Made by a program: the position numbers and the translations under genes
Notes under the pieces: generated by a model
The model's input: the letters and a program-made list of their open reading frames with translations, nothing else
The model's database searches: none
Told to the model about the DNA's origin: nothing
Part shown: one piece after another, positions 13,031 to 53,983 of the stretch
Layout of the letters: every line of letters starts with the position of its first letter
Numbering within the stretch: the first letter of the stretch is position 1
Assembly (NCBI GenBank): GCA_028753945.1
Contig: JAPNXP010000001.1
Span: 1,974,501-2,038,500, forward strand
DNA: 64,000 nt
Reading direction: 5' to 3'
Source: Hexactinellida sp. DTS-2022
Lineage: Eukaryota > Porifera > Hexactinellida

Positions 13031-13527
13031 GTTACTAGTATTAATTAGTTGTATTACGTAATTGATAAATCAATAAGGGAAAATACTAGACTAGATCCCG
13101 CCTTGTTGAAGGCAAGTGAATTAAAATTAAATCTTTCAATTATAAAAATCCAAAATTGCAGCTGTGCCAACAGCATGATCCCATGGAGCCACTGTATTTG
13201 GTGCTACTGGCTGATTAATTGATAGTGCCTCCAAAGAAAATGTTGTCTGCACAGCTGCAATTTGGGAATTTTTCGCCATGTCATCATCAAATGAAGGTGT
13301 TAATCAATTCCAGAATGGTGTTTCGGAAGGTAACGACCCTTAGAGTGGTGGTAGTTTCCTTTTAGCCCACTTCATTTCAGATGATTCAAGTTACAGTAGA
13401 ATATAATAGATGATTAGTCAGCATTTTTTAATGCGTGTTGGGTGTTCACCCAACTCATTCGAAATATATAATTTACAAAATTGTAAAACACATTTCTGAC
13501 GATGTCTTCGCCACCTCAAGGTGTTAA

Positions 13528-14679
13528 TGTTGCAGTGTATATGCACTTTTGGTGTACATGCATGTACACCAGTGCAAATGCATGTACACTGATAAGTTGG
13601 TGTACAATGTACATGCATGTACGCCGGTGTATATGCACTTTATGGACTATATTGGCTACAAGTGTATATACACCAGTGTATATGCACTTTTATCCATTTT
13701 TTATGTCAATGGGTGTTTATGAATTTAAACTAGTATATTGTGAATTCCTGTGTATCTAAGTTATGATACAACATTGATTCTGAAATTGTACATATATTCC
13801 CTCGATGTAATATAGCTAGTATTATACATACGTATGTTATGATTATGACATACGGCGCGCGTAAATTACTTTGATAAAATTGCAATCGATTAATTAGATT
13901 TTCACACATGCAATTGTAGGATGCATTGCTGGGAATATAATTATAATTAACTTCAAAGAATTTGTGTTTATTGAAATGCATTGCATGATTATAATTGTAT
14001 CTTATCAATTAGAATCAAATGTTATACAATCGAAACCGGTTTATTCTAAACAATTCATTTCATGGAAATAAAGTAAGAAAAATCCTATAATTAGAATAAA
14101 CCGATTGAAGATAAAACAAAATTGGAATTTCTTACACATTTAGAATATAAAATAGAAAACGATTAGTTACGAAAAACTGGGATCAGAAACCCTGTTTCGA
14201 CTGAATCGTAACTAGATAGATACACAGGAATTCACAATACTTACCGTATTTCCCCGAATAAGCGCCCGGCGCTTATTGTTTTCGTGAGCCAAAATTAGCC
14301 TGAAATTTTTGTGAAAAATCCAGAATATAATATTTAGGTCGGTTCTAATGGTTTCCATCAACAGTATACCTACCGAAGTTGCCAAAATAATTGGAATTAC
14401 ATTACAGTGATCAACTATTGTGTTTAAATTGTATAATACCAATGTCATTTTTTATGACCCGGCGCTTATTCAAGCCATGGCGCTATTCGGGGAAATACGG
14501 TAATTAAAATTAATAAGCACCCATTGACATAAAAAATAAGCAAAAGTGCGCATACACTGGTGTATATACACTTTGTAGCCAATATAGTTCATAAAGTGCA
14601 TATATACTAGTGTACATGCATGTACACCAACTTATCAGTGTACATGCATGTACACCAAAAGTGCATAAACACTGCAACA
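13528..14679. mobile_element. TTAA-flanked element with ~170-bp terminal inverted repeats
   Basis: The ends are TGTTGCAGTGTATATGCAC and its inverse, flanked by TTAA at 13524-13527 and 14680-14683. Comparison with other HR copies shows an empty site with a single TTAA. The arms are built from TGTACATGCATGTACA palindromes. TTAA targeting is typical of piggyBac-type elements, but the termini are not the usual CCC. No transposase ORF is seen. Confidence 0.8.
14242..14502. mobile_element. Mariner-like MITE
   Basis: TA-flanked, with termini CCGTATTTCCCCGAATAAGC and inverse. It is nested in the TTAA-flanked element. A second copy is at 59746-60008. Confidence 0.9.
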
Positions 14680-15495
14680 TTAATACCCATTTATCGAGGT
14701 GTTAGGTGGCATAAGGATCAATTGATAAATTGGAAGTTTGTTTCTATCTTGTATCATCTCTAAGATTAATGCTATTTTATAAATGACTATTAAAATTATT
14801 GATAATTTAACACCAATTTCAATTTCAACTTTAAATATATTAAGTTATAAATAGTAAATATTTGGCTACCATATTTCAATTCAGCACACTCGATAACCCC
14901 TAATAAACAAATTGGAAGCATCTATTTAAGTCAAATACAGACTGATTAATTATAATTAATTACGTGGTATATTAATGGTACAAGAGTATCTTGCAGAAGG
15001 AAATATAATCAGATTATCTGTCGTTGTTATGGAATGTTCAATTGGAAAATAGAAACCTACTCGATCGCACAAGTTGATTGAATATAATTATCGCAAGTTG
15101 GAACAATAGAATTAGATTTAACACATTCAATTGAACTGTTAGTATACAAAAGAAATTTGCCACTCAATTGTGGTATAAAGTTATAAACGAAGCCCAATTA
15201 TAAAATTCGTGCACTGTGAAAGGGTGTATAATTAAATTCTCTATCGAATGCATCTAAATTGAACATTCGGGAACTATTTATTGTTCCTGTTGTGACATAA
15301 CCCATGATACACCTATCCTGAAAATTTGGGCTCTTAGATAACAAAACTGTTCTGTGGAGAGGATACGGACTAATAACTAACCAAAGCAGTCATTTTAGAA
15401 CTGGGCCACTATACTATAGTATAGTCGGCACAGATAACTAACCAAGTCAGTCATTTCAATACTGGGCCATTATAGTATAGTAGTCGGAACAGTAT

Positions 15496-16320
15496 TAATT
15501 TAAAAAAAGTAAAACATTGTAACCATCAAAATCCTTGCCTCACAAAGAAATAAAGAATTGTAAGAGTATTCAAATTTAGCTATCGTGTTTAGGAAAAAGT
15601 TACCTCGATTCTTGTAATCGGAACATGTGATGAGATAACTAACGTATTGCATAATAATCCTGAATTTGAGGTTATAATATATGCTGTTAGTTCGGATTAC
15701 ATTCAGAAAATTGAAAGACAAGCAAATGATGGAGGAATTTTCATCGCCAGAACTATGTCTTCGTTAGTGAAAAGTATTGGATTCACACTAATACATACTG
15801 CTTCTTATGAATAAACACTATCATGTGTTAATTCACAAATATGACTTGTGATAATTTACAGTACAGGGCCGTAGGAGCAGGTGCAGCCATGGCAGCACCA
15901 ATAATTTTGGTGACCACAGAAATTTTCGGGGAGACATTTAAGTCACCGACAACTATAGGAGCGGCATAATGGTATTGGTAAACAAAACTGCTACAGGTGT
16001 GACATAGGTGCTGCTGCAACCGCCAAACTGTTCGGTACCATTATAATATATCGTATTTGTAACCATTAGATTATTTAGCAAGTAGCAACTCTTTTTAAAC
16101 TTCAAAAAAGAATGTATAAAATTTTAATAGTATGCATGTATTTTTTGTATTTCCCTTAGTTGAGTAACTTAAAACATAGAGCGAAAGCGCGTATAAAGTA
16201 GAAAGGATTAATGTCTGTTTATATTAAATATAGTGACGTCACTATGCCGCACCAATAAATGTTGGCGTTCTACGGGCCTGCAGTATAAATTGCTTTTTGT
16301 ACCGTTTTCATTTATTCAAC
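15496..16320. other. Intergenic, no gene seen
   Basis: AT-rich. A GC-richer patch at 15866-16020 (CAGGGCCGTAGGAGCAGG to GGTGCTGCTGC) may be a small hAT-like element, but I could not match its ends. Nothing else was recognised. Confidence 0.4.
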
Positions 16321-19187: not shown

Positions 19188-20352
19188 TTAGTTTTCTACT
19201 CCAGAATCGTAAGAATCACTTCCTTCGGTTGAAGTTGTTTCCTCCTGTTCAATAATATCATTATCATTATCTCTGTCAAGTTCGTCAAGTCCATAATCAA
19301 ATTCCTCTTGCTTTGAATGTGGGGAAAATACAGTAAAGGAACATGATTCTGTACTATTCAAGCCAATATACGAATCAGATATAAGAGATACTTCATATTG
19401 ATAATTTCCAGTTTGGAGGGGTGCTTGGAACTTAAGTTCAGTCTCGAAGGTATTCAAAAGAGAAGAAATAAATTTTGGTGCAGCAGTTAGCATATTTGTT
19501 TTATGGTCTGACATATAAAGCCACCAACCTTCTTGTCGCTTCAGAGATAAATGTGGACAATGGACAGGGAGAGAACAAGAATCATTCCTCGATGAGGGCT
19601 TAAGTTTATCTTTCTTCAGGATAGTTTTTTGGAGTATCTCGAATTCTTTATCCTCATCAACGCAATCAAGATCAATTATTGTTTTATCGTCTTGGTTAGC
19701 CAAATGTTTAAATGGAGCATTTGCTCGGTTTATAGAATGACTTGACTTTTCGTACGTAAAGGTTTGAAGTATTCTTTTCTCCTTTTTTAAATGAGATTTT
19801 TTTTTACCCTTCCTAATTGAATTGTTAGTAACCTTGATCTCACATCGATTCATGGAACAATTGAATTCCGTATCTTGTGTAATGTCTACTTCTCCAATTA
19901 ATAAATCTGAACATTCTTTACTACCACCTGAATCTATATTTGATAACAAATTACGACGTTGCAGATAAATATTCACAGTTACTAATGCACCAGGTGTAAC
20001 TCTTTTATTATCTTTTATATCAATAATTTCTAATTCAGCCTGCATATCAACCTTAGGCATCCCAGAAATAACAGCAATAACGTCATTATATTCATTTTCA
20101 GTAAGTCGTCTAAATAGTTTCCGACGCTCTTCGATAGTCAAAGCAGCAAGATCATCAAGGGAGACAACCCGTCTCTTTTTGGTTGTGAAATGTTTAAAAT
20201 CTTCCTCGTTCACATGTGGTAATTGTAACAGTTGGGAAGAATTTGAACCAGATAATCTTTGGGTGATTAGAGGTCCAAGTTTTAGAATTTTTTCGAAAGT
20301 TTGAAGATTGGGACCTTTGTTGCTCTTGTTCTGTATTTGCTTTTTCATTCTT
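19188..20352 (-). CDS. SEC63: SEC63, last exon (C-terminal Brl domain and acidic tail)
   Basis: SEC63 is an ER membrane J-protein that works with the Sec61 translocon and BiP in protein import. This exon encodes about 387 residues. It starts at the end of the helical part of the Sec63/Brl domain (LQTFEKILKL, then LLQLPHVNEEDF) and continues through SLDDLAALTIEERRKLFRRL. The beta-rich fibronectin-like part follows (VTPGALVTVNIYL), with a lysine-rich insert, then EGWWLYMSDHKTN and GNYQYEVSLISDSYIGL. It ends in an acidic tail (EQEETTSTEGSDSYDSG). The stop is TAA at 19188-19190. The acceptor TTTTATTTTTAG precedes base 20352. One leading base completes the Arg codon split with the exon at 53571-53983, so the phases match. 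Codons are intact throughout and this is probably functional. The 1165-nt single exon suggests intron loss relative to vertebrates. Confidence 0.95.
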
Positions 20353-20908
20353 CTAAAAATAAAATAAAATGTCTTAGTATATATTTACTTTATTCCCAGA
20401 GGTATACAATCATACTACCGTGTTTCGCGTACAGGTAAATTCGGGTTGGAAACTTTTGTTCTCATTCCCAAATATTCAAAATTCAAATAAAATTAAGTTT
20501 GTCGCTTATAATTCTGACCGTCTACAATCTGAAAATTCAATACATTATATTAGGGATGCTGAAAATTTTGGTCATGTCATATTATGATTACAAACTTCTA
20601 GTCCGCGTTACCCGCGCGAGTTCTTACAACTTCCACTCTGGCCTGCGGCACCTAATGTTTTTTAAGCATATTCCCTTTGAAATGATATGCCATCTTTATT
20701 TAAATACTGTGTAACCTTCTAGTAACGGCCAGGAGTTCATCCAGGCAAATAAATTTGAAAGAAAACTATTATAGTCCGCGAATATACGTAGAGAGATACT
20801 CCATAGACGTGTTGCAAATTGAGTAATTTAGGCAGACGACTCAAACTAAATCTAGTAAATCTAAACTAGATCTAAGCGCGCAGGAAAAAATGTTATACAC
20901 AGGTGTGC

Positions 20909-23679: not shown

Positions 23680-24375
23680 ACGAGCCCTTCGGTCTCGGTC
23701 GCTTTGCGACAGATCGGTGCTACGCACCTCATGTTAACAGCCGCTGTGCGGCCTTACTGCGGCCTTACTTACTACGGCCTTACTTACTCCTCAGTCCTCA
23801 CACTTTCTACCATGGAAATGGTAGAAAGGGACGTTAAGATTTTGAATTTTCTTAATTTGTTTACCTAATTGTGTAAACAACAACAACAACAAATACTCAT
23901 ATTAGAATTTTACAAATGCGAAATTCGTGTTCAGCACACTTGTTTACTTATAATACCCGTTGAAAGCTAACTTCTAGGTTGATTTTGAATTTTCATTAAT
24001 TTGTTTATATATTTGTGTAGAACAACAACAACAAATATTCATATTAGAAATTTTAAACGCGAAAATCGTGTTCAGAATACTTGTTGACCTATAATACCCG
24101 TTGAGAGCTAACTTCTAGGTTGATTTTGAATTTTCATTAATTTGTTTACCTATTTGTGTAAACAACAACAAATATTAATATGAGAAATTTATAAACGCGA
24201 AATTCGTGTTCAGCATACTTGTTTACCTATTATAACATTTGAAAGTTAGTTTATATCCCAATATTAATTGCGGTTTTTAATAACTTTCTATTCCCCCAAT
24301 CACTTTAATACAATCCGGACAAACACACACACACACAAACACACAAACAAACAACAATCGAGAATTAATAATATA
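23680..24375. repeat. Composite repeat: hairpin block, ~145-bp units (about 3), CA microsatellite
   Basis: Opens with GAGCCCTTCGGTCTCGGTCG. It is followed by three tandem units (starts near 23918, 24060 and 24197), the GCGGTTTTTAATA and ATACAATCCGG blocks, and a CA-rich run at about 24322-24350. Same order as at 2860-3725 and 8745-9700. Confidence 0.85.
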
Positions 24376-31155: not shown

Positions 31156-34100
31156 ATGTCCTGCGTAGTTCCTGGGTGTAAATCCAATTACAAGAGCCAA
31201 GGTCAACGTACAGCTTCTTTTTCATTTCCGAAAGATAAAGAACTTCGTGAGAAGTGGTTTAGGGCTATCCCAAGACCAAGAGAGTACTACGAGGAAAACA
31301 AATACATACAGGTGTGTAGTTTATATGCATTCTGAATTAATTATATTGTTTTGACAAAAACTGTCCGCCCGGACATTTTTTGTCAAAACAATACATTTCA
31401 ACCAACTTCGATCTTAGGTATGTATCCACCACTTCAAAGATGAAGATACTGTAAGGACACTTGAGTATTTTGATGGAGAAAAGATTATCGAGATGCCCCG
31501 AGACAAGATGACTCTGAAAAAGACAGCGATACCAAGTATTTTCCCCAACTGCCCAAGCTATTTAACAGACAGAACAGAAAAGTGTAAAAGGGTGTCAAGA
31601 GATGACAAGGATGAGACCATGCTTCGAGAAGCATTCAGGATGAGCCGGATTGATGACAATATGACAGGTGTTAAGTTCCAAGTTAATTCATTTGCTGATT
31701 TGTTAACTAAGTTAGATTTAATCGATCTAAAAAATCCAAAATTGCAGCCTGTGCCGACGCATGTTCCTTTGGTGGCACTATATCTTGATGTGGTTTATTG
31801 AGTGCCTCCAAAGGAACATGCTGTCGGCACAGGCTGCAATTTTGGATTTTTTTGGCAAAGTCATCATCACTATGAAGGTGTTAAATTATTTCAGAAAGGT
31901 GTTTCAGAAGGCAACGACCCTTAGAGTGGTGGAAGTTTCCATTTTGCTCACTTCGTTTCAAAGATATTCAAGTTTCAGTAGAATATAATAAGTGATGAGT
32001 CAGCATTTTTTATGTGCGTGATGGGTGATGACCCAAAACCAACGACCCATTTGAATTATATAATTCACAAAATTGTGAAAACACATTTATTTTACGATGT
32101 CATAAACACCTCAAGGTGTCAATACCCATTTGTAGAGGTGGTACGTGGCATAAGGATCAATTGATAAATTGGAAGTTTGTCTCTATCTTGTATAATCTCT
32201 GAGATTAATCAAATTTGGCTAATTAGTCTAAATATTTAATAATAATTTAACACCATTATTATGTACAGCAAAATAAATTAAGTTCCATTATTTGCAATAA
32301 TTATTAATTTAAATTTAATTTTACTATCATATTTGAATTCTGTACACTCGATAACCCCAATAATCTAATTGGAACCGTCTCTATAAGTTAAACACAGAGC
32401 GAATTAATTAGAATTAAATATGTCATGTATCCATTGTGCAAGAATATTCTAATCCGAAATAAATATAATCACATAATCTTTCGTTGTTATGGAATGTAAA
32501 ATCTTAGTTTTCAATTGGAAAATAGAAGCCTACTCGATCTCACAAGTTGAATCAATATAATAATAACGAGTTGAAACAATAGAATTTGATTTAACACTTT
32601 CAATTGAACTGAAGTGTTAGTAAACAAAGGGAATTTGCAACTCAATTGTGGCACAAACGAAACACCCAATTTAAAAATTTGTGCACTGTGAAAAGGTGTA
32701 GAATTTAATTCTCTATCGAATGCATATAAATTGAATTTTCGCGCACTATTTATTGTTCTTTTTCTAATATTAAACAGGTGCAAATATGTGGCCCAAAAAA
32801 TGTAATAAAAAATCGTGACCCCAGGTGCACATCTGTAACCCATGAGACACCTATCCTGAAAATTTGGGCTCTTAGTTAATTAAACTCTGTTCTGGGGAGA
32901 GGCTACGGACTAATAATAACCAAGGCAGTAAGATTAGAACTGGGCCACTATACTATAGTATAGTCGGCACAGTAAATGATTGGGTTACCTACAATCCAGG
33001 AACAGATTCTTTATATTTCCTGAAGATTGTAACTTTGGATAACGCACCTTCCATTGAACGGACACTCATGATTGACCATGACTCAAATTCTCAAGCATTT
33101 TATAGGGGAAAACATCTAATTCCTTTGCCGACAAGGGTGATAAATGATATTCGTCAAATTGAATCACATATGAGTGATATTAATTGTTATTCTCTAGAAT
33201 CTTTACCCAAAAATTCTAATATCAAGAGTATTACAGTAAATACTAATATAGAACATGCAATTAGTGATATCAGCTGTGCAATTAATCAATTAGAACTTAG
33301 TGAAAATATCGAAAGCGATTTTGGAATGGAAGACTCCAATTCAATGAAAATTCGACTCCATTTCCTTATAGACCAACTGAGAAATTCAATAACTGAAAAA
33401 AATGGTCGCCGCTATAATATTATTTCTCAAGTTTTTGCATTAAAACTTCATGGGATATCGCCTGCTGGTTATCGGCTTATTCTCTCTTCGGATTGTTTAA
33501 TTTTGCCACACGAGAGGAATATTTTGAGAATGAAAAATTCCATTGGCTTAGAAAATGAGTACCTAAACGTTCTCAAAGAAACAGCCACAACTTTTAGCCA
33601 GCTAGATCGCCATGTAATTATTCAAATGGATGAAGTGAACATCCGTAGTGCTGCTAGCTACAAAGGGGGTAGAATTATTGGATCCATTGAGAATCCTGAA
33701 GACCCCCCAACCACAGTTTTTTCTATAATGGTATCCAGTTTAGCGAAAAAGTATTCAACCATTGTCCGTTTGATACCTCTCGGATCTTCGTCAGCAGAGG
33801 TCCTTTTCCCAATTGTAAGAAATACTATATCTGATATTGAAAGTTGCAACTTGTTTGTTGAAGCGATGTGTACTGGTAACTATCCCCTGAATGTTAGTTT
33901 GTTTAAATTATTCTCAAATGACTCAAAAACTTTGCATCCTAAAGTTAAACATCCATGTGATCCCTCCAGAAATCTAATATTACTTTTTGATATAGTCCAT
34001 ATAACAAAATCAATTCGTAATAATTGGCTAAATTTGCACGATCATGACAAGACATTTGTTTTTCCCATGTTTGAAGATTGCTTTGAAGGCTATTCAAACA

Positions 34101-35503
34101 ATGTGACTCCATCTAATAGCCTATGTGTGTCCATTCAAATCAAAAATATTACCGTTAATCATAGTAAACACCCGTCGCTCTATCCACAAGTATGTACTTC
34201 TTCTTTTGATGACATACGAACTTTATTCAAATCAGACGTGTACAATATTCTGAAGAGGGCACCTAAATTATCTTCCAAGGCATGTTGGCCATCCAATTTA
34301 GAAAGGCAAAATGTAAACTTGGCACTCAAGATATTTCACGATTCTACATACAATGGGCTGCTAACTTTCAAAATTGAGAAGAAAATTGTAGAAAATAATC
34401 AAACAGTTGCATTTTTGAAATTAATTAGTCATATTTGGGATGTATTTAATGTTAGTTGGGTTGGAAAAGATATCCGCTTTAAAAATGACTACTCAGCTCC
34501 ATTATGTCAAAACGATTCTCGATTGAGCTTTATTCGAAAAGTGGTTGCATGGTTGAATTGTTGGAAAGTTCTACCATGTAGATATGGTAAACTGACACGA
34601 CAAACGTTTAATAGTTTTAGGCAGTTGATCGACTTACTTGTGAATGCAATTTCAAATATGTACTATCAGCTAGAATTCAAAACGACCCCTTAGAACACCA
34701 CTTCGGATTATATAGACAAATGTCTGGAGCTCACTACCATATTACCTACTGTCAAATATTAGAAAGTGAAAGAAGACTCCAACTTTCTAATATTCTGAAA
34801 TTGTTTTCAACTTAATTAAAATCTGATGAATTTGTCAAGCCTTTAACATTGGAGAATTATATTTAAAAATTTGCGGAAAATGTTTGTGGGGAGAGTTCAG
34901 ATTCTTATTTTGATTTTCAATTATTTGTTGAAACACTTGAATTAATTCCCAAACCTCATATTAATTGATCCCAGGTTGAATGTCTTGCTTATGTTGCTGG
35001 GTATGCCGTATTTTCATACCTCAAAAAATCTAACTCGTGTGTTAATTGTCATAATTTCTTAACTACTGAAAAACAAATGGAAGTACTTAATGATATGGGA
35101 TCTCAATTTATTCTCATTGAATTATTAGACAGGGGTTCTCTTAAATATCCTTCTATTGCAGTTATCGATTGTGTTAATATTGTATACGAAACTTTTATGA
35201 AAATTGATAGCTGTGAATTACTCAGTAAAATTTTTTGTCGGTCCATGTCGTACTATTTTAATACAAATAAGCATGAAGTTTATTGAAGATGAGCTTATTA
35301 ATACTTGGAGAGAATGCTGTGATTGCAAAGTCTGGCGGTGGGATATATTAAAAAAGATTATATTAACTGCATCTAATTGTATTCTCTCAAAAAGAGTTAA
35401 TAATTATAATAACATGGTGGTGAAGTCCGACAATTCGAAGCTTAAAAATATAATAACTAATTTTTCTTTTATTCTAGGTATCCATTATCAGAAGTTTAAT
35501 TAA
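31156..35503 (+). pseudogene. THAP-domain P-type transposase, copy 2, disrupted
   Basis: Exon 1 (31156-31311) encodes the start of a THAP zinc-binding DNA-recognition domain (MSCVVPGCKSNYKSQGQ, KWFRAIP). A 106-nt intron (31312-31417, GTGTGTAG...TTAG) follows in phase 0. Exon 2 resumes with VCIHHFKDED, completing the C2-C-H zinc ligands. Coding sequence stops near 31730 at an HR insertion and resumes at 32973 in the same frame. The ORF from 33035 contains Asp in IIQMDEVNI, Asp-region CTGNYPLNV (Gly in place of the Asp seen in copy 1) and FDIVHITKSIRNNW. A deletion with frameshift near 34625, then stops at 34691, 34813 and 34864, and a shift near 35225 break the C-terminal part (DPLEHHFGLYRQ, LAYVAGYAVFSYL). 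Not functional. Confidence 0.92.
31731..32973 (+). mobile_element. HR modular repeat, single copy inserted in P transposase exon
   Basis: It begins with the ~120-bp palindrome (31733-31855) and ends with one 3' hairpin and CGGCACAGT (32938-32972). The host coding sequence continues directly on both sides, so these are true element ends. The full length is about 1.24 kb, with no ORF. Confidence 0.9.
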
Positions 35504-36280: not shown

Positions 36281-37345
36281 AATAAAATTGCAGCTGTGCC
36301 GACGCATGTTCCTTTGGAGGCACCATCTTTTGGTGGCTACTGATTGGTTAATTGTGCCTCCAAAGGAAAATGCTGTCTGCACAGTGCAATTTTGGATTTA
36401 TTTCGCGATGTCATGAACGCATCAAGGTGTTTGGACCCATTTATCAAGTTGTTACGGGACAAAGCCTCAAAGGAACGATTGATGAATTTGAAGTTTGTTT
36501 CTGTCTTGTACCATCTTGAGTTTAATGAATTATGTATAGATAACAAATTCTTGATAGTTAATTATTTTAGCAATGTTATCTACGGTGAGTTGAATTAAGT
36601 CAACAAATTCCTTGTATAATTTAATTAATTGAATCCATTGTATAGTAATACTACAATTAAATAGAAGCCAGCTGGAATTTATAAGTTAAATCAATATATT
36701 TATCGCAAGTTGAAACAATAGAGTAAGATTTAACAAGTTAAATCAATATACTAATTATTACAAGTTTAAACAATAGAATTAGATTCAATATAATTATTAC
36801 AAGTTGAAACAATGGAATTGAATTAATAGTTTTACTGAATCTGAAGTGTGAGGAAACACAGGAGATTGGTACCCCAATTATGGCACAAACCTAGGCCAAA
36901 TTCAACATTTACGATTTGCCAAAAGGTGTAGAATAGAATTTACTATCCAATTATCTAAATTTAATCAAGTTTACTAGTATTTATTATTTAATGTTATGAC
37001 CCATAATTAGATTAAATAAGGTGCTAAATTATTTGATCAAAATTCGTAACCCCAGCTGCAAATTAGACGGTCGCTCCGCACCTGCGTGCCAAAGTTTCAG
37101 CCCTTAATGTATACAGGTGTGGCCAGGGCAACTGCTAGGAGAAATATAAATAACCAAGGCAGTAAGATTAGAACTGGGCCACTATACTATAGTATAGTCG
37201 GCACAGTAATAAAAATAAAGGTAGTGATTTTAGAACTGGGCCACTATACTATAGTATAGTCGGCACAGTAAAAAAAATAAAAATAATAAAGGCAGTAAGA
37301 TTAGAACTGGGCCACTATACTATAGTATAGTTGGCATAGTAAAAA
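36281..37345 (+). mobile_element. HR modular repeat, short variant, three 3' hairpins
   Basis: Palindrome at 36285-36400, then the short-variant body (AACGCATCAAGGTGT, GCCAGCTGGAATTTATAAG, CCCCAGCTGCAAATTAGACG). It ends in three tandem 3' hairpins at about 37172, 37235 and 37305, each with CTATACTATAGTATAG. Confidence 0.88.
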
Positions 37346-37683
37346 TAATTAAGTCATAAAATCAAAGACTTCCATCCTGGATCCAACACCATTTTCGACA
37401 ATCAAGGAAAACATTATTTCATTTGTATCACCACAAGTTAGGCATTAATTTACTTCAAGTAACTCTGTAACTTACATTTGTTCATGGATTAATATTGAGG
37501 CATGTTTCCAATGCAATTTTGCAATGTTTTATGTGGCACAAATGCTAAAGTGGTAGGGAACTATAAATTCGCTACCCATTAAACAATCAACATGAAAATA
37601 TAATTTTAGGGTAAATTTGGTGCGTAGAAATAATAAAAAATGGTCAAAAGGAGCTTCCCGCGCTCCTAGATTTTTCCCCGGGA
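37346..37683. other. Intronic sequence, no gene seen
   Basis: No recognised repeat or coding block. Confidence 0.4.
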
Positions 37684-37890
37684 TTTGGTTGACGTAACCA
37701 AATATTATCAGTATTCGTATTCGGTTAAAGCAACCGAATATTATCAGTATTCGTATTCGGTTAAAGCAACCGAATATCATCAGTATTGTATTCGGTTAAA
37801 GCAACAGAATATTATCAGTATTTGTATTCGGTTGACGTAACCAAATATTATCAGTTTTCGTATTCGGTTACTCAACCGAATATCAGTATC
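37684..37890. repeat. ~42-bp tandem repeat made of small palindromes
   Basis: About five units of ATTATCAGTATTCGTATTCG plus a GGTTAAAGCAACC core; each unit can fold as ATTCGGTT...AACCGAAT. Confidence 0.9.
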
Positions 37891-38659: not shown

Positions 38660-39318
38660 ATGATATTTTTTTCTCTATCTAGCATATGCCTGAAAAGTTC
38701 TGCCTACCAACTTTTGAAGAAATACATTCCATTGCCTAGTCAATCTCTACTTCGATCGTTGAAGTCACCTTCCAGGGTTTCATTTTGGCAGGGGGGATCC
38801 TAAGTCCCCCCTTGGGATTTGAAAAATACACTGATCAAAGCTGAAGCCGCCCCTCAGATTCCCAAAACTCTACTTTGCCCCCACTCCCCCCCTTGCCTAA
38901 ATGTCTGGATTAAACACTGCCTTCAATCGATAATTGTAAAGCACTTTCAGCTCTCTGTGCAACGATTTAATCGGAAACGATATGGGTCCTACTCCTAGAT
39001 GAAATGTACCTACAACCTCAAGTGAATTTTGACCGTAAAACTTTAATTAGCTGTGATTAATATCTTGACCTATTCAAGAGTATCCTTTGGTTTATGGTTA
39101 TTTTGCTAACTAAGTCAATACCATTTATAGTGTCAGCCATACCTATCTTAAAAATCTCAGGGGATATAGTTCATTATAGCTCAGAGAAATGCATATCTCT
39201 ACTTACTAAAACACATTTTAACATTCGTGCGATAATCGCAGACAATCATCCTACAAACGTCAGTGCTTATAAACAACTCAGACACCTACATTGAATTCGT
39301 GAAAGTGATCATGTTATT
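38660..39318 (+). pseudogene. Fragment of a second P-type transposase family
   Basis: VLLLDEMYLQPQVNFD (first catalytic Asp) lies near 38988-39035. The ORF 39094-39294 has KCISLLTKTHFNIRAIIADN and HPTNVSAYKQL (second Asp in IADNHP). The sequence is clearly distinct from the other two P copies. It is truncated at about 39318 by the reversed HR array. Confidence 0.75.
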
Positions 39319-39324
39319 ACTGTG

Positions 39325-40815
39325 CTGATACTAGAGTATAGTGGCCCAGTATTGAAATCACTGCTTTTATTACTGTGCCGACTATACTATAGTATAGTGG
39401 CGAGTAATGAAATCATTGCCTTTATATAATACTATGCCGACTATACTATAGTAAAGTGGCCCAGTATTGGTCTTAGTACTTTGGTTAGTTTTCCTTCCGT
39501 ACCCTCTCCACAGAACAGAGTTTAATTAACTAAGAGCCCAAATTTTCAGGATATGTGTCTCATGGGTTACAGATGTGCACCTGGGTCACGATTTTTGATT
39601 AAATTCTATGGACACATTTTTGCACCTGATTAATAATAAAACAGGAACAATAAATTGTACCCGAATATTCAATTTATATGCATTCGATAGATAATTAAAT
39701 TCTACACCTTTTCACAGTGCACGAATTTTTAAATTGGCCTTAGTTTGTGCCACTATTGAGTTGCAAATTTCCTTTGTTTACTAACACTTCAGTTCAATTG
39801 AAAGTGTTAAATCTAATTCTATTGTTTCAACTTGTGATAATTATATTGATTCAATTTGTGAAATCGAGTAGGCTTCTATTTTCCAATTGAAAACTAAGAT
39901 TCTACATTCCATAACAACGACAGATTAAGTGAATATATTTCATTTTACAAGAAATACTCTTGTACTATTAATATACTGACATAATTAATTATAATTAATT
40001 CAGTCAGTATATGACTTGTATAGATGCTTCCAATTAGTTTATAGGGGGTTTTATTAGTGTGCGGAATTGAAATTTGATAGCCAATTAATTAATTAATTAT
40101 TTATGACAAAATAGTTCAACTTAACAATTGCAAGTTGACATTGAAATTGGTGTCATATTATAAATAATATTAATAATTATTATACTATAAATTAGCTAAA
40201 TTTAATTATCTCAGAAATGATGTAAGATAGAAACATACTTTCAATTTATCAATTGGTCCTTATGCCACGTAACACCTCTACAAATGGGTCATGGCACCTT
40301 GAGGTGATGATGACATCGTTAAAAAAATGTGTTTTACAATTTTGTGAAAATTATAATTCGAATGGGTTGGTTGATCACCCAACACACACATAAAATGCTG
40401 AGTCATCACCTATAATATTCTACTCAACCTAGAATACCTTATTATAGGAAATTAACACGCCATGAAATTAACACGAAAGAAATTAACGCTCCATGAAATT
40501 ATCGCGAAGGAAATTAACGCGATTTGGAGAAATTCGCGTTAATTTCATGGCGCGTTAATTTCCTATAATAAGGTATCTATAAAATGAAGTGAGCTAAATG
40601 GAAACTTCCACCACTCTTAGGGTCGATGCCTTCTGAAACACCTTTCTGAAATAATTTAACACCTTCATAGTGATGATGGCATGGCGAAAAAGATCCAAAA
40701 TTGCAGCCTGTGCCGACAGCATGTTCCTTTGGAGGCACTATCAATAAACAACCAACAAAATATAGTGCCACCAAAGGAACATGCGTCGGCACAGGCTGCA
40801 ATTTTGGATTTTTTC
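39325..40815 (-). mobile_element. HR modular repeat, long variant, reverse orientation, three 3' hairpins
   Basis: Minus-strand reading: palindrome 40690-40810, long-variant body, ending in three hairpins near 39465, 39400 and 39355. It carries the TA-flanked MITE 40435-40575. Confidence 0.88.
40435..40575. mobile_element. Mariner-like MITE, 141 bp
   Basis: TA-flanked; termini CCTTATTATAGGAAATTAAC and exact inverse. Nearly the whole element is palindromic (GCGTTAATTTC repeats). Confidence 0.9.
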
Positions 40816-40921
40816 AAGTTGTAATAAATATATTGAATCAACTTGTTGAGATCGAGTAGGCTTCTATTTTCTAATTGAAAATTAAGATTATATATTCCAT
40901 AACAACGACAGATTGAGTTGA

Positions 40922-42720
40922 CTGAATAAGACCCAAAAAATTAAGACGAAAATTTTATTTTTTCTGGACTGGAATAAGACCGAATGGAATAAGTCCGAAA
41001 TATATCCTTGACTGGTAAGAGACCGAAAATTTGAAACTGGAATAAGACCGAAAAAAGCCCCTCACAGACGGGATGGGAGTGTGCTCCTTCTGATTGCACT
41101 TCCCCAATGTTTAATTTAACTAGAATTTCAATATTCAAATTACATTTCATCTTAGTGAATATAATTTAATTAATGTTTGAATTGTGAAGACTTCAAATGT
41201 TAAAATTAATTAAAGATTAATTATTACAAATAGAATTAGGAATACGTGTAGTATTTACGTTACTATTTGAATAATAGAATTCATTATTGACATCATCATC
41301 AACTTGTAAATGTTCCATCTTCCAAGTGTTTTCATTGCACTTGTATGAAACGCATATTCACTTACAAACCAAATAATAACAGTCATTATCTAGCAGATAG
41401 TAGGCTTATGTAATATGTTCTATAGTATTCAAGTATACTAGTATAGTAATTAATTACTAATTACAATATGGAGAAGATGGCTGATTTACATAAAAAACCG
41501 TTAATAAAACGTAGAATTGATTAGCGACCTAATAATTTTAATTGATCTATAGAAAGAACATCCTTAGGAGAATACAACCTCTAAATTTTCAATAACTAAT
41601 TCGAATTATTAAAGAGTCACTGGACCAGAAGACAAATTTCGACATAACTGACGAACAAAAGCGAAATTGAGAAATCGGGCTTCGAGGTGATCATCTCCAG
41701 GGAATTCTATATCTTTTGTCCAAATTATAAATCTCTATCCCTTATGGTTTAGTCAGACCATCGCGTACGGCCGGCCGGCCGGAAGTCCGACAGAGGTAAA
41801 TTCAATAGTGTGCACTTATAGTATAAAACTATAGTAGGACCCTACTAGTATAAGAAGAAGCACACTAAAAATATCCAAAACTGCACCAAACTATGATATT
41901 TGAATAGGAAGCCACTGCTTTCAGTTTTTCATTCTAGAAAATAAAATACAATCATTGGAAATTGGAATCCAGTTCAATTATAATTGATCAATTAAAGATA
42001 ACTCTTAATCAGGTTTCACGTTGCTACCATACTTATAAAGTTTTTTTGGCACCACCTCCTAAATTTATTCGGCCCAATATTACACTGTCTCAATTATGGC
42101 AAATTTCGAAAATTTGGAAAGTCACCGGAAAAACTCGTTATTATATCGAAATGGGATTTATACTTATCTTAAGGATCAAGATTCAAATGGTGTCAGATAT
42201 TTAAGATGCATAAAATATAAGGATGGATGTCGTGCTCGTGCAAAAATTAATTTGGATATGAATACCTTATCACTTTTAAAAGATACACGACAACTACTGC
42301 GCAGAAAGGATTTCAAATTCTGGACTTAATAATTGTCCTATTTGTAGAGAGCTTATTGAAAGCTTTATAAAAATCTTTTTGTGATGCAGGTCGAAAAGTA
42401 TACTCTAAATATTCTCAATTATATACTCTTCATCGTTATACTAGTAATGTCAGTTTTATTTTTTCATTAATTATTATATTATTTTAATGTTTACTTCAGT
42501 TCACTCCTAAATTCCTAATTATTTACTTATTTATTCTAGTTATTTTAATTAGATTTAAACGTCTGACCAGCATATTTATATCCTCAAATGGTAGCTTGGG
42601 TGATTATTCGACAGCATCAATATATCATTAGAATAGGTGATTAATGATTCTAGTTTTGAATTTTCGGTCTTAATCCAGTCATGGATATTTTTCGGTCTTA
42701 TTCCATTCGGTCTTATTCAG
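40922..42720. mobile_element. 1.8-kb inverted-repeat element carrying a FLYWCH fragment
   Basis: The ends CTGAATAAGACC (left) and GGTCTTATTCAG (right) extend inward as imperfect repeats of GGAATAAGACCGAA. It is nested in an HR unit. No clear target duplication is visible. MULE-type transposons have long termini and FLYWCH-containing transposases, which would fit, but no DDE region is present. Confidence 0.7.
42096..42329 (+). pseudogene. FLYWCH zinc-finger fragment
   Basis: Seventy-seven residues: LLYRNGIYTYLKDQDSNGVR, then YLRCIKYKDGCRARAK, matching the first half of a FLYWCH finger including both cysteines. The histidine pair is only suggested in a shifted frame. Downstream is a short frame with NNCPICRELI. 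No transposase domain follows. Confidence 0.65.
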
Positions 42721-43545
42721 GTTTCCCAAATTATTAATAAATTAATTAAATATTTATACTAATTAGCAAAATCTCATTAATCTCAGGGATGATACAATAT
42801 AGAAACAAACTTCCAACAGATCAATTGATCCTTACGCCACGTAACACCACTATAAATGGATCTTGACACCTTGTGGTGATGATGACATAGTCAAAAAATG
42901 TGTATTGACAAATTTGTGAATTATATGCTCTGAATGGGTTAGTTGGTGTTAGGAGAATACCCAACACTCACATAAAAATGCTGACTAATCACATATTTTA
43001 TTCTACTAAAACTTGAATATCTCTGAAATGAAGTGAGCTAAAACTAAACTTCCAACTCATAAGGGGTCGTTCCCTTCCGAAACACCTTTCTGAAATGGTT
43101 TAACACCTTCATAGTGATGATGACGCGGCGAAAAATCAAAAATTGCAGCAACTGCTGACAGCATTTTCCTTTGGAGGCATTATCTATTAACCAGCCAGTA
43201 GCCACCAAAAGATAGTGCCTACAAAAGGAAATGCGTCGGCACAGCTGCAATTTGGATTTTTTATTTCACCAATGGATTTAGCATAAAAATATCATAATAA
43301 TGGGTTTAATTCATGCCATAAATGGGGGTTGAAATTTATTGGGTTTACTCGCACTTCAGTTTCAGTAAAACTGTTAAATCTAATTCCATTGTTTATACTA
43401 CTTGTAATAATTATATTGATTTAACCTGTTAAATCTAACTCGATAGTTTCAACTTGCGATAATTTATTGATTCAACTTGTGAATTCGACTCGGATTCTAT
43501 TTAATTATAGATTAATATAAAATGGATGAATAAATAAAAATAAAA

Positions 43546-46500
43546 AATATCCAAAATTGCAGCCTGTGCCGACGCATGTTCTTTTGGTGGCACTATATTT
43601 TGGTGGTCGTCTATTGATAGTGCCTCCAATGGAACATGCTGTCGGCACAGGCTGCAATTTTGGATTTTTTCCCCATGTCATCATCACAATGAAGGTGTTA
43701 AATTATTTCAGAAAGGTGTTTCAAAAGGCAACGACCCTTAGTGAGTTGGAAGTTTCGTTTTAGCTCACTTCATTTCAAAGATATTCAAGTTTCAGTAGAA
43801 TATAATTAGTGATGAGTCAGCATTTTTTATGTGCGTGTTGGCTGATCACCCAAGACCAACCAACCCATTCGAAGTATAGAATTCACAAAATTGTAAAAAC
43901 ACATTTTTTTGACGATGTCATCATCACCTCAAGGTGTCAGGACCCATTTGTAGAGGTGTTACGTCACATAATGATCAATTGACAAGTTGGAAGTTTGTTT
44001 CTATCTTGTATCATCTCTGAGATTTATGATATTTAATTAATTAGTATAAATAATTATTAATACTATTTATAATATAACACCAATTTCAATGTCAACTTAC
44101 AATTATTACGTTAAATTATTTTGCCATAAATAATTAATTAATTAATTTGGCTATCAAATTTCAATTCCGGACACTCGATAATCCCTAATAAACAAATTGG
44201 AAGCATCTTTATAAGTCATATAGTGACTGAATTAATTATAATTAATTACGTCATTATATTAACAGTGGAATAATATTCTCGCAGAATTAAATATAATCAC
44301 ATAATCTGTCGTTGTTATGAAATATATAATCTTAGTTTTCAATTAGAAAATAGAAGCCTACTCGATCTCACAAGTTGAATCAATATAATCATTACAAGTT
44401 GAAACAATGGAATTAGATTTCACAGTATTACAGTAATTGAAGTGTGAGTAAACAAAGAAATTTCAACCCCTATTTATGGCAGAAATTAAACCCTTTATTG
44501 AAAATTTTCTTCCCCCATCAGACGCAGAATTTTATGGTGAATCCAAATATGAAATAAAATTTTGGGGTTTATAAAAACATATTTTGAGTTATGGATCAGA
44601 CAAATTTTGAAAGGTGTTAAAGATGTGTCCAAAATTTGTTAATCAAAAATCGTAACCCCAGGTGCAAATTAGACGTCGACTCCGAACCTACATGCCAAGT
44701 TTCAGCCCATCAACTATAAAGCTCTGGCCAGGGCACCAACTACGGAGAAAAAAAAATAATAAAAAAAATAATAATAAAGGCAGTGATTCCAATACTGGGC
44801 CACTATAGTATAGTATAGTCGGCACAGTAATAATATTATTAAAGGCAGTAAGATTAGAACTGGGCCACTATACTATAGTATAGTCGGCACAGTAAAAATC
44901 CAAAATTGCAGCCTGTGCCGACGCATGTTCCTTTGGTGGCACTTTATTTGTTGGTTGTTTATTGATAGTGCCTCCAAAGGAACATGCTGTCGGCACAGGC
45001 TGCAATCTTTTTTCCGCCATGTCATCATCACTATGAAGGTGTTAAATTGTTTCAGAAAGGTGTTTCAAAAGGCAACGACCCTTAGTGAGTTGGAAGTCAC
45101 CATTTAGCTCACTTTATTTGAGAGATATTCAAGTTTCAGTAGAATATAATCTGTGATGCTCTCAGCATTTTTTACAGTGCGTGTTGGGTGTTCGCCCAAT
45201 TCCAACCAACCAATGCGAATTATTTAATTCACAAAATTGTAAAAATACATTTTTTTGACGATGTCATCATCACCTCAAGGTGTCAAGATCCACTTGTATA
45301 GGTGGTACGTGCCATAAGGACCAATTGATAAATTTAAAGTTTGTTTCTATCTTATATCATTTCTGAGATTAATAAATTTAGATATTTAGTATAAATATTT
45401 AATTAATCTATTTATAATTTAACACCAATATTATGTACATCAAAATAAATTAAGTTCAATTATTTGCAATAATTATTAATCTAAATTGAATTTCACTATC
45501 ATATTTGAATTCAGCGCACTCGATAACCCCAATAATCTATTTGGAACCATCTCTATACGTTAAACACAGAGCGAATTAATTAGAATTAAATATGTCATGT
45601 ATCTATTGTTCAAGAATATTCTAAGCAGAAATAAATATAATCAAATAATCTGTCTTTGTTATGGAATGTAGAATCTTAGTTTTCAATTGGAAAATAGAAG
45701 CCTACTCGATCTCACAAGTTGAATCAATATAATAATCACAAGTTGAAACAATAGAATTAGATTTAACACTTTCAATTGATCTGAAGTGTTAGTAAACAAA
45801 GAAATTTCAACCCCCATTTATGGCATGAATTACCAATTCTAAAAATTTGCATTTTTTCCCATCAGACGCAGAATTTTATCGTGAATCTAATTGTGAAAAA
45901 AATTGTGGCTTTAATATAACATTTTTTGAGTTAAGAACCAGACAAATTTTGAAAGGTGTTAAAATTTGTAAAAAATTTGTTAATAAAAAATCTTAACCCC
46001 AGGTGCACATCTGTAACCCATGAGACACCCATCCTAAAAATTTGGGCTCTTAATTAATAAAACTCTGTTGTGTTTGAGGATACGGACTAATAATAATGTT
46101 AAAATCCAAAATTGCAGCCTGTGCCGACGCATGTTCCTTTGGAGGCACTATATTTTGTTGGTTGTTTATTGATAGTGCCTCCAAAGGAACATGCTGTCGG
46201 CACAGGCTGCAATTTTGGATTTTTTTCGCGATGTCATCAACGCCTCAAGGTGTCATGATCCATTTGTTAATTGATCCGAGCCACAAGGAACGGTTGATAA
46301 ATTTGAAGTTTGTTTCTATCATAAACCATCTTGAGTTTACTGCCATTCAATCATTATGTATTGATAATAAATTATATTATTAGTTATTTATTTTAGCAAT
46401 GTTATCCACTGTGATTTGAGTAAAGTCAATAAATTCCTTATATTATTAGATTTTATATAATCCATTGTATAGTAATACTAGAATTAAATAGAAGCCAGCT

Positions 46501-48855
46501 GGAATTTATAAGTTGAATCAATATAATTATCGCGAGTTGAATCAATAGGGTAAGATTTAACAAGTTAAATCAATATAATTGCTACAAGTTGAAACAATAG
46601 AATTAGATTTAACAGTTTTACTGAAATTGAAGTGTGAGTAAACAAAAGAAATTTGAAACTGAATTGTGGCACAAACTAAGCCCAATTTGAAAATTCGTGC
46701 ACTGTGAAAAGGTGTAGAATTTAATTCTCTATCCAAATATGCAAATTTTATCAAGCTCACTATTTATTATTTAATGTTATGAGGTTTAATTAGATTAAAT
46801 AGGTGTTAAGAAATTTTGAACGGAAATCGTAACCCCAGGTGCAAATTAGACGGTCACTCCGCACCTACATGCCATGTTTTAGCCCTTAATGTATAAAGGT
46901 GAGGGCAGGGTACCGTCTACGGAGAAATAATAAAAAATCCAAAATTGCAGCCTGTGCCGACGCATGTTCCTTTGGTGGCACTATATTTTGTTGGTTGTTT
47001 ATTGATAGTGCCTCCAAAAGAACATGCTGTCGGCGCATGATGCAATTTTGGATTTTTTCGCTAAGTCATCAACGCCCAAGGTGTGAAGAACCATTTGTTA
47101 ATTGGTCGGAGTCACAAGGAACGGTAGATAAATTTGAAGTTAGTTTCTATCATAAACCATCTTGAGTTTAATGCCATTCATTCATTATGTATTGATAATA
47201 AATTATATTATTAGTTATTTATTTTAGCAATGTTATCCACGGCGATTTGAGTTGAGTCAACAAATTCCTTATATTATATTATTTTATTTAATCCATTGTA
47301 TAGTAATACTAGAATTAAATAGAAGCCAGCTGGAATTTATAAGTTAAATCAATATAATTATCGCAAGTTGAATCACTAGAGTAGGATTTAACAAGTTGAA
47401 TCACTAGAGTAGGATTTAACAAGTTGAATCACTAGAGTAGGATTTAACAAGTTAAATCAATATAATTATTACAAGTTGAAACAATAGAATTAGATTTAAC
47501 AGTTTTACTGAATCTCAAGTGTGAGGAAATAGTGGAGATTGGCACCCAAATTATGGCTGAAACTAAGGACAAATTTAAAATTCGTATCCTTCCAAAAGGT
47601 GTAAAATTAAATTCTCTTTCCAAACATTTAAATTTGATCAATCTCATCATTATTAATTTAATGTTATGAGCCTTAATAAGCTTAATTAGGTGTTAAAATT
47701 ATTTGATCAAAAATCGTAACCCCAGGTGCAAATTAGACGGTAACACCGATTCTTCATGCCAAATTTCAGCCTAACAACTATAAAGCTCTGGCCAGGGCAC
47801 CGTCTACGGAGAAAAAAAAAAATCCAAAATTGCAGCCTGTGCCGACGCATGTTCCTTTGGTGGCACTATATTTTTGTGTTGTTTATTGATAGTGCCTCCA
47901 AAGGAACATGCTGTCGGCGCAGGCTGCAATTTTGGATTTTTTTTTCCGCCAAGTCATCAACGTTCAAGGTGTGAAGAAGCATTTGTTAAGTGGTCGGAGT
48001 CACAAGGAACGATTGTTGAATTTGAAGTTTGTTTCTATCATAAACCATCTAGAATTTAATGCCATTCATTCATTTTGTTTTGATAATAAAATATATTATT
48101 AGTAATTTATTTTAGCAATGTTATCCACGGTTGGTTGAGTTGAGTCAACAAATTCCTTATATTATATTATTTTATTTAATCCATTGTATAGTAATACTAC
48201 AATTAAATAGAAGCCAGCTGGTATTTATAAGTTGAATCAATATATTTATCGCAAGTTGAAACAATAGAGTTAAGATTTAACAAGTGAAATCAATATAATT
48301 ATTACAAGTTGAAACAATGGAATTAGATTTAACAGATTACTGAAATTGAAGTGTGAGTAAACAAAGGAAATTTGAAACTCAATTGTGGCACAATCTAAGC
48401 CCAATTTGAAATTCGTGCACTGTGAAAAGGTGTAGAATTTAATTCTCTATCCAAATATGTAAATTTTATGAAGTTCACTATTAATTATTTAATGCTATGA
48501 GCCATAATTAGTTAAATAGGTGTTAAAATTATTTGATCAAAAATCGTAACCCCAGGTGCAAATTAGACGGTCACTTCGCAACTACATGCCAAATTTCAGC
48601 CCATAATGTATATAGATGTGGCCAGGGCACCTGCTACGGAGAAATAAAAATAAAAATAATAAAAATAAAAGCAGTGATTCCAATACTGGGCCACTATACT
48701 ATAGTATAGTCGGCACAGTAAAAATTAATAATAATAATAATAAAGGCAGTGATTCCAATACTGGGCTACTATACTAAAGTATAGTCGGCACAGTAATAAA
48801 GGCAGTAAGATCAATACTGGGCCACTATACTATAGTATAGTCGGCACAGTAAAAA
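43546..48855 (+). repeat. Tandem array of five HR units
   Basis: Palindromes start near 43548, 44896, 46104, 46936 and 47821, giving unit lengths of about 1348, 1208, 832, 885 and 1034 bp. The first two are long variants and the last three short. 3' hairpins occur only after unit 1 (two, near 44795 and 44860) and after unit 5 (three, near 48686, 48760 and 48818). The other junctions go from CTACGGAG- or CGGACTAATAATA-type sequence straight into the next palindrome. Short ORFs reading LQPVPTHVP are the palindrome arm translated. Confidence 0.92.
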
Positions 48856-50714: not shown

Positions 50715-51182
50715 CACCATAACAAGTTGAAACAATATAATTATAATTAACACTTTCAATTGGAACTGAAGTGTTAGTAAACAAAGGAAATTAGCAACTC
50801 AATTATGGCACAAACTAAGACCAATTTGAAAATTCGTGACTGTGAAATGTGTATAATTTAATTCTCTATCGAATGCATATAAATTTAATATTCGGGCTCT
50901 ATTTATTGTTCCTGTTGTGACAATAAATAGGTATGAAAATGTGTCAAAAAATGACCACAGGTGCACATCTGTAACCCATGAGACACCTATCCTGATAATT
51001 TCGGCTATTAGATAATTAAACTCTGTTCTGTGGAGTCAGTGGAGAGGCTACGGACAAATATACCAAAGCACTGAGACCAACACTGGGCCACTATACTATA
51101 ATATAGTCGGCACAGATAACTAACCAAGTCAGTAATTTCAATACTGGGCCACAATACTATAGAATAGTCGCCACAGCTAAAA
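50715..51182 (+). mobile_element. HR modular repeat, 3' part with two hairpins
   Basis: Long-variant 3' body (TGAAGTGTTAGTAAACAAAG, GAGACACCTATCCTG) and two 3' hairpins near 51083 and 51147. Confidence 0.82.
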
Positions 51183-52925: not shown

Positions 52926-53570
52926 CACTAGAATATGTATACGTATATTATAATTTATAAAAGTTTTGAAAAAAAGATCGCAATCACGGAACTAGTTTTA
53001 TAAGAATATATTTTGCCCCAGAGTGTTCAAATATATAGTATACCCATTGTATATATACTGGTGATATTATTGTTTAGGAAGACACGCCTACATTCCTCCT
53101 GTGTAATTTTCACATAGCAAAATTTAGAAATTAATGTAATGTACTTGGCAAGTTCTAAAAGCTTCATGCTCCAACCCAATCATACGATTAAGGAGCATTC
53201 AGGGATGCTAGTTAAACCCCTGCAAACTTGACATTTATTGAAGCAGTACGTATATTGGCTTAGGAAAAGTAAAATATAGTTGAACTGTAATGAACCAATT
53301 AATGTTTATTTAAGTGAAGTCGAATTATTACGATCATTGGGATTAAGTACAATGTACATATAATATAGTTATATCCTCAAAATTGAATATCTTCGGTTAA
53401 TTGGGTTAAGTTACCCTTGCACAAATCTAAACCAATTTTCCGGAAACTAAATTAGTCCCATGTGTAATAAAATGAATACAATAATTTATAGAAAAGTAGC
53501 CGGACTGAATATAAATTTCAAGCAAGGTAGAGGGGTTGATTAATGAGTATAGGGAGGTAAATATAATTAC

Positions 53571-53983
53571 CTATTGTTTGGAGTAAATTGAGTCCTCTGG
53601 TACTTGTAATAAGCCATCATTTCAATACAAATATTGGCTAGATGTTCCCAAAGAGCAGGACACCTACTTAAAATATATTCCAAATCTTTTGAAAATGGAG
53701 TAGTAAGACAAATTCCTTCCAAATATGATAGTAACAATATACGGGCCTTTACAGTGAAAGGAATGTTGAAAGGCTTGAGGTTAAGTTTGTGTTTAGAGTG
53801 GGGTAATTTTTCAGCTAAATGAAGGAGCAAGTCTTGATCTTCGGGTTGATCTGTAATGCGTTTGTTTGAATGAATAGGGCTAAATTCACAAGCACACATT
53901 AAAATCATTATTAGTCTCTGAATATTGCTTTCTGGATAATTGTGTAAACAATAACCAAACATTTGGCTAGTCTCACTGAGGAT
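53571..53983 (-). CDS. SEC63: SEC63, penultimate exon of the gene (start of Sec63/Brl domain)
   Basis: This exon encodes 137 codons plus two bases. It begins ILSETSQMFGYCLHNY, matching the region just after the third membrane segment of animal SEC63, then SNIQRLIMILMCACEFSP. The Brl-domain helices follow, including VKARILLLSYLEGI and LEYILSRCPALWEHLANICI. The acceptor is CTATTCCTTTAG before 53983 (phase 0); the donor is AATAG|GTAATTA after 53571 (phase 2). The phase fits the exon ending at 20352. The J domain and membrane segments should lie upstream (higher coordinates) but were not found to 64000. Codons are intact. Confidence 0.94.

Follow-up and report, generated by a model that had tools for sequence, protein, structure and literature searches.

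The 64-kb stretch of the Hexactinellida sp. DTS-2022 assembly analysed here (the window; C1:1974501-2038500 of an assembly of 112.4 Mb in 18 contigs) carries, at 39308-48850, an array in which two reversed units of a repeat, the second truncated, stand opposite five forward units. This repeat is very probably a non-autonomous Helentron family of the Helentron-associated interspersed element (HINE) type. Its units share their ends with a coding relative in the same assembly, one unit aligns to that relative in two pieces, and an empty site has been found for another. The arrays are polarised head to tail, and neighbouring units are not siblings of one another in the sample read. This level of confidence applies to the Helentron assignment, while the mechanism by which the arrays formed is held more weakly. 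The original prediction for this DNA had proposed a Helentron-type classification, and the Rep-helicase-endonuclease element described below, which carries both ends of the repeat, bears this out. The prediction was also right about the two reversed and five forward units, whose borders are given in Table 1, and about the positions of the 10-mer CTGTGCCGAC and its inverse.

Unit structure, abundance and polarity

A complete unit has a palindrome of ~120 bp on one side of its body and, on the other, zero to several ~60-bp hairpin modules, each of which contains the hairpin CTATACTATAGTATAG and GTCGGCACAG. Genome-wide searches returned 3,809 palindrome arms (26 bp, at most 2 mismatches) and 6,736 hairpin modules (30 bp, at most 2 mismatches), and the reversed control pattern gave no match in either search. 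Taking ~1 kb per unit, the family is estimated to occupy roughly 4 Mb, or 3-4% of the assembly. Individual units were studied in a sample of 74 complete units from 23 stretches, comprising the window, loci L009-L028 and two loci with coding elements (L055 and L056). Since L009-L028 are the best palindrome matches to forward unit 3 of the window, this sample is non-random. Unit lengths, measured from the palindrome to the end of the body, are mainly ~825, 1180 and 1407 bp. Hairpin modules are iterated up to 12 times among the runs read; the run of 12 consecutive modules (L019, reverse strand, 5615-6336) has an alternating two-module pattern in its middle.

The original prediction placed the palindrome at the 5' end and the hairpins at the 3' end, and this assignment has to be reversed. 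The genes of the coding element in L055 run from the hairpin-module end to the palindrome end. Furthermore, CTGTGCCGAC is located one base from the hairpin-module terminus, whereas GTCGGCACAG is located ~18 nt from the palindrome terminus. Both the gene direction and the asymmetry of the subterminal repeat identify the hairpin modules as 5' and the palindrome as 3'. The element ends are ACTGTG and GGATTTT, the latter being the T-rich terminus of the palindrome, which ends in GCAATTTTGGATTTT and encloses the inverted 10-mer. In element sense, the palindrome strand (126 nt) has a folding energy of -63.9 kcal/mol (z -18.8 relative to 200 shuffles) and a stem of ~50 bp; for the 51-nt 5' end the energy is -8.2 kcal/mol (z -3.8), a value equalled by 1 of 200 shuffles. 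An Rfam search at gathering thresholds returned no match, and thus no known RNA family, and a tRNA search was likewise empty.

A coding relative with Rep, helicase and endonuclease domains

The assembly was searched with the Pfam family Helitron_like_N. Scoring 150 of 292 candidates gave 151 matches, which fall into two score groups. Among the matches listed, 20 places of the lower-scoring group have an open frame between 1,652 and 1,709 aa long. A pair of them was read as 10-kb stretches, L055 (C1:5536500-5546490) and L056 (C13:1360300-1370290), and are 96.8% identical across 9.4 kb. L055 contains three hairpin modules at ~455-650 and the palindrome at 9840-9983, with open reading frames (ORFs) of 437, 292 and 1,700 aa between them. 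The original prediction had suggested looking for an element of this kind, an autonomous Rep-helicase element sharing both ends. The 1,700-aa protein (P0001) matches Helitron_like_N (8.3e-29), PIF1 (8.2e-25), Exo_endo_phos_2 (8.1e-7) and Exo_endo_phos, all four above the curated cut-offs, though the endonuclease matches exceed theirs narrowly (29.4 vs 27.4 and 27.8 vs 24.5 bits). Among solved structures, Helraiser (7lcc) is one of its relatives (2.1e-19). Residues 1536-1631 of P0001 also match, weakly (8e-5), chain 6dx2, which is labelled RNA-dependent RNA polymerase and is probably a viral OTU domain. In the 437-aa ORF (L055 1554-2864) a ~17-residue repeat around RLKDP occurs nine times; the ORF also contains GIEINPGP, which resembles a motif of the 2A peptide type, and the 292-aa ORF (2940-3815) matches DUF6570 (4e-15).

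The relation between the short units and this element is clearest for forward unit 5 of the window, which aligns to L055 in two nearly meeting end pieces (368-3 of the unit with 88% identity, 1045-389 with 82%), as expected of an internal-deletion form. Other short copies reach up to 97% on the hairpin-module side (query 1-669, C12:6003777), and the interior of L055 (~1755-8955) is matched by none of the 74 units. On these alignments, the short units appear to be full-length coding elements that have undergone internal deletion. The mean share of unit length that matches L055 is 76% for S-type units and 37% for L-type units, so that L units probably have another partner subfamily.

Linkage of each end to coding DNA was examined with queries spanning shared DNA and DNA found in the coding element only, with 40 places scored per side. 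On the hairpin-module side, six of the 40 places span the border to the end of the query, L055 and L056 among them, and three of the six (L055, L056 and C7:2203097) include hairpin modules within the alignment. On the palindrome side four of the 40 are complete: L055 and places on C18 (100%), C11 (97%) and C2 (95%). The element at C18:1626378-1635723 is common to both lists, and its alignment lacks a hairpin module. A further coding copy (C1:9199953), in line with such a partner subfamily, has a putative 3' stretch whose end is formed by the same palindrome; the DNA beyond it matches no unit, and the last 240 bp of this stretch match forward unit 1 at 93%. No hairpin module was seen in the 5' stretch fetched for this copy (L058), in which long tandem repeats sharing CATCAAAAGAAACAACTGGAAACGTCC are visible by eye. 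In the second, higher-scoring Helitron_like_N group (~220 bits), 20 loci of 3.5 kb (L029-L048, frames up to 1,930 aa) carried neither of the two ends, with as many as 4 substitutions allowed, in the ~1.5 kb round the match, a length too short to decide on ends.

Insertion sites

The single unit at 31732-32973 interrupts a THAP/TNP-like coding repeat and thereby allows comparison with uninterrupted paralogues. Nineteen places in the assembly, including the window's own, match the right flank of this unit, and all five paralogues fetched (L050-L054) are uninterrupted and read ATCGATCTAAAAAATGATTGG, with one change in L051. The filled site reads ATCGATCTAAAAAATCCAAAATTGC and GTCGGCACAGTAAATGATTGG. 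The target at the empty site is A6/T6. The T that follows CACAG is part of the element, and the site can be explained without a duplication. A TAA target duplication had been considered because TAA frequently follows the hairpin-module end; it was dropped, as the T is the element's own at the empty site. In a filtered flank comparison, 15 runs of hairpin modules end without a further module behind them, one broken and 14 intact, and AA occupies the second and third base after 13 of the 14 intact ends, which corresponds to TT in element sense. The original prediction had named two outcomes that would speak against it, namely clear target duplications with inverted termini and satellite-type arrays with no dispersed single copies. 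Neither was observed: no clear duplication is apparent at the single empty site, and dispersed single copies occur at 31732-32973, at 36283-37340 and in L013.

These results also bear on the idea of a cut-and-paste element with terminal inverted repeats (TIRs), such as a miniature inverted-repeat transposable element (MITE), in which the palindrome would be one insertion and the hairpin module another. Although the 120-bp palindrome by itself resembles a foldback element, this origin is extremely improbable. Such an element would have symmetric TIRs and a fixed duplication, whereas the ends here are asymmetric and the empty site requires no duplication; the palindrome and the hairpin module are each tied to a Rep-helicase element at several places, and the Pfam matches of the coding relative include no DDE transposase family.

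Comparison with known elements

The features of the family were compared with four published accounts, which between them already describe Helentrons, HINEs, tandem Helitrons and elements with multiple 5' termini (PMC4067079, PMC7492417, PMC5148889, PMC4778049). Like the Helentrons and HINEs of Thomas et al. 2014 (PMC4067079), the present family has an autonomous partner with a Rep-helicase fused to a C-terminal endonuclease, and non-autonomous copies that share both ends and lack the partner's coding region. Asymmetric subterminal inverted repeats, close to the terminus at the 5' end and further in at the 3' end, a 3' palindrome, plentiful internal-deletion forms and strings of T at the borders are also common to both. 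Insertion at the one site read is into a T-rich target without visible modification, a duplication of up to 4 bp being possible there, as in the T-rich targets without visible duplication of the published elements. The two differ in their dimensions. The palindrome of mite HINEs measures 5-10 bp, whereas a stem of ~50 bp encloses the subterminal repeat here, and the repeat itself is 10 bp long at one base and ~18 nt from the termini, compared with 12-15 bp at 2-4 and 38-60 nt in mites. Iterated 5' ends (up to 12) and large head-to-tail arrays likewise set the present family apart from the elements covered in the available parts of that paper. Additional OTU-type and RPA genes are described in Helentrons, but not in all of them.

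Among Helitron2-type elements, FoHeli1/2 of Fusarium oxysporum (PMC5148889) resemble this family in their asymmetric inverted repeats, in carrying a hairpin at either end and in terminating with ATTTT. Some FoHelis also carry several 5' termini on one 3' terminus, which was ascribed to self-insertion, and a tandem trio is reported in Metarhizium. The fungal elements lack an endonuclease domain according to the authors, and arrays of the present kind are not among the descriptions in the available parts of that paper. The terminal hairpins and asymmetric inverted repeats described there would allow a Helitron2 assignment, for which a single Rep/helicase ORF without an endonuclease would be expected; in P0001 the endonuclease matches are present, if only just above the Pfam cut-offs, and since this domain is the hallmark of Helentrons according to PMC5148889, Helitron2 is very unlikely. 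A canonical Helitron (Helitron1) was rejected, as its 5'-TC and CTRR-3' ends and A/T insertion are replaced here by ACTGTG and GGATTTT and a T6/A6 target. Helraiser/Helibat (PMC4778049), which shares helicase kinship (7lcc), a 3' hairpin terminator and bypass of the 3' end, similarly has canonical 5'-TC/CTAG-3' ends, and its palindrome measures 19 bp. Cg_HINE of the Pacific oyster (PMC7492417) resembles the present family as a non-autonomous Helentron tied to satellite-like repeats. Its tandem repeats are short monomers within one element, whereas whole units and 5' ends are repeated here, and its authors could not connect a coding element to it.

The original prediction knew of no described family combining a large palindrome with iterated hairpins. 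The part of this claim that concerns several 5' termini does not hold, as these are known from the Fusarium elements (PMC5148889), while for the remainder the literature searched, with subscription journals and Repbase outside the search, contained in its available parts no Helentron that has both a 3' palindrome of ~50-bp stem and 5' ends iterated up to 12 times; an entry for the family in a repeat library is nevertheless possible. This 3' end provides a natural extreme for the idea of a hairpin terminator. Moreover, a very abundant non-coding repeat tied to a coding relative in one assembly makes Helentron transposition testable.

A number of observations weigh against the Helentron assignment. 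The run of A at the empty site could hide a duplication of up to 4 bp, this is the only empty site, and joined-flank searches for the unit at 36283-37340 and for the L021 array found none. The subterminal repeat, identical over 10 bp, falls one short of the family criterion of at least 11 bp given in PMC4067079. The identity of unit 5 to L055, just 82-88%, lies under the >95% reported for Culex HINEs, and the L-type units match L055 over only the 37% mentioned above. Both ends together have been read in only one coding element, L055, which sits inside an array, so that its borders are module borders and not host flanks; L056 has three hairpin modules, and its palindrome side is non-contiguous, with the alignment stopping at 822 of 1,184. 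A Pfam scan of P0001 found no OTU family, and a Pfam scan of the two small ORFs of L055 (P0002 and P0003) found no RPA match. Finally, a unit in L017 (reverse strand, ~5780) stops right after CTACGGAGAA, without a hairpin module, in DNA lacking a unit match. It may represent an alternative type of 5' end or result from a deletion.

Origin of the arrays

The formation of the arrays was probed with 45 pairs of neighbouring complete units, equivalent to 90 directed comparisons. According to the original prediction, arrays are simply expected from rolling-circle copying; in such multimers the transposase would bypass the terminator and copy one unit repeatedly, head to tail. This expectation was not supported, as a neighbour was closer than every sampled unit of the other stretches in just 2 of 90 comparisons, which is about chance level for ~70 units. 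Within size classes, the mean difference between neighbours is 0.124, and permutations gave 0.137 ± 0.015 (p 0.198); moreover, 10 of the 45 pairs join different types. Circle multimers should also contain hairpin modules in each unit, yet none lies between the members of 39 of the 45 pairs, and units without them are common inside arrays. Rolling-circle multimers are consequently unlikely, even though termination bypass is cited for tandem Helitrons (PMC4067079) and several results agree with them. Palindromes less than 2 kb apart have the same orientation in 62 of 65 cases and opposite orientations in 3. Neighbours share their S or L type in 35 of 45 pairs (23.0 ± 3.3 permuted; none of 5,000 permutations reached 35), and adjacent ~1407-bp units differ by 0.068 (n=6), compared with 0.112 between loci (n=180). 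The family thus provides a means of settling how arrays of rolling-circle transposons arise, and the nearest-copy test argues against simple local multimerisation.

One junction was examined using the query 45400-46800, for which 40 of 4,757 candidates were scored. Each half of the query has its matches of 95-97% at separate places, and C4:3405586 (94%) is the best place outside the window to span the junction. On the nearest-copy, junction, orientation and hairpin-module results, most of the neighbours read are not recent copies of each other.

Another possible origin of the arrays and the clusters of hairpin modules is unequal exchange, as in the evolution of ordinary satellites. The alternating pattern of the 12-module run in L019 fits this process, and neighbouring module leaders are slightly closer to each other than leaders of different loci (5.9 vs 6.8 differences in 23 positions). 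However, unequal exchange leaves the dispersed single copies, the empty site, the coding relative and the non-sibling neighbours unaccounted for. It is refuted as a full account and, as an origin of arrays and clusters alike, is quite unlikely; for the clusters of hairpin modules it is possible.

The leading but unproven account of the arrays is self-insertion. For transposition of the family in general, the Rep-helicase-endonuclease protein of full-length relatives in the same genome would nick at a 5' module, one strand would be displaced up to a halt at the palindrome, which would serve as the terminator, and the copy would be inserted into a run of T. Under self-insertion, arrays would grow via repeated insertion of different family members into the T-rich module borders of the element itself. 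In L055, T-rich tracts such as TTATTATTATTATTTTT precede each 5' module and the body, and a (TTA)n tract has TT on one strand only; TT on one strand at the module borders would favour insertion in the same orientation. Such strand-polarised tracts could explain why the units lie head to tail. A more specific form, in which family members insert preferentially, and in the same orientation, into their own (TTA)n tracts before the body and between 5' modules, is put forward tentatively and may well not hold. If true, this rule alone would yield head-to-tail arrays, inner units without hairpin modules and stacked 5' ends in the absence of rolling-circle multimers, and would also give elements several origins to choose from.

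Some results count against self-insertion as the sole process. The excess of same-type neighbours makes local duplication or block copying likely for some of them, and C4:3405586 may be a block copy of the window junction. In a test for block copying, the nearest copies of neighbours were themselves adjacent in 1 of 45 pairs, a result of low power with 23 stretches read. The age gradient expected toward the cluster of hairpin modules, on the 5' side, was not seen (Mann-Whitney p 0.78; 7 of 13 runs). The number of hairpin modules does not follow the number of units, and strict nesting with one module per unit is ruled out by L022 (1 unit, 8 modules) and L028 (4 units, 2 modules). The pattern in L019 and the leader differences indicate that clusters of hairpin modules probably expand locally.

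Copies and other features in the window

The copies of the family in the window are collected in Table 1.

Table 1. Family members in the window. Strand is given in element sense, with the hairpin-module end as 5'.
Feature	Position	Strand	Description
Diverged, interrupted copy	13138-15513	-	Pieces 13138-13527 and 14685-15513
Single complete unit	31732-32973	-	Within THAP/TNP-like transposase repeat; palindrome 31732-31853; one hairpin module, end 32973
Single unit	36283-37340	-	Three 5' hairpin modules 37158-37340; 3' palindrome 36285-36400
First reversed unit	39308-40812	+	Three 5' hairpin modules 39308-39466; 3' palindrome 40691-40812
Second reversed unit, truncated	42726-43266	+	3' palindrome 43148-43262 plus ~400 bp of body
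Forward unit 1	43546-44893	-	Palindrome 43546-43669; S-type body end; two hairpin modules ~44780-44893
Forward unit 2	44894-46100	-	L-type body; no hairpin module of its own
Forward unit 3	46101-46933	-	Short S-type body; no hairpin module; palindrome 46101-46226, ~50-bp stem
Forward unit 4	46934-47816	-	Short S-type body; no hairpin module
Forward unit 5	47817-48850	-	S-type; three hairpin modules; aligned to both ends of coding element L055
Cluster of three 5'-end modules	~48671-48850	-	Module order in element sense: ACTGTGCCGAC, then a short hairpin, a leader and a T-rich tract
Diverged 5'-end fragment	50718-51182	-	Two hairpin modules

The first reversed unit contains an inverted-repeat insertion at 40434-40577 (ATACCTTATTATAGGAAATTAAC... 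and its inverse) that resembles a small separate MITE. Adjoining the unit at 36283-37340 is a 36/71-bp tandem repeat (37683-37883) with the partly palindromic unit AACCGAATATTATCAGTATTCGTATTCGGTTAAAGC, and a ~140-bp tandem unit, seemingly the same by eye, occurs at 2853-3466, 8867-9235 and 23838-24245. Two copies of a THAP/TNP-like (P-element type) transposase are located at 238-2145 and 31418-34693, the latter being the one split by the unit at 31732-32973. Host-like exons are present on the reverse strand at 19191-20384 and 53570-53983, with matches to the Sec63 Brl domain (Pfam, 7e-9) and, weakly, to Brr2 helicase chains (2e-4 to 5e-3).

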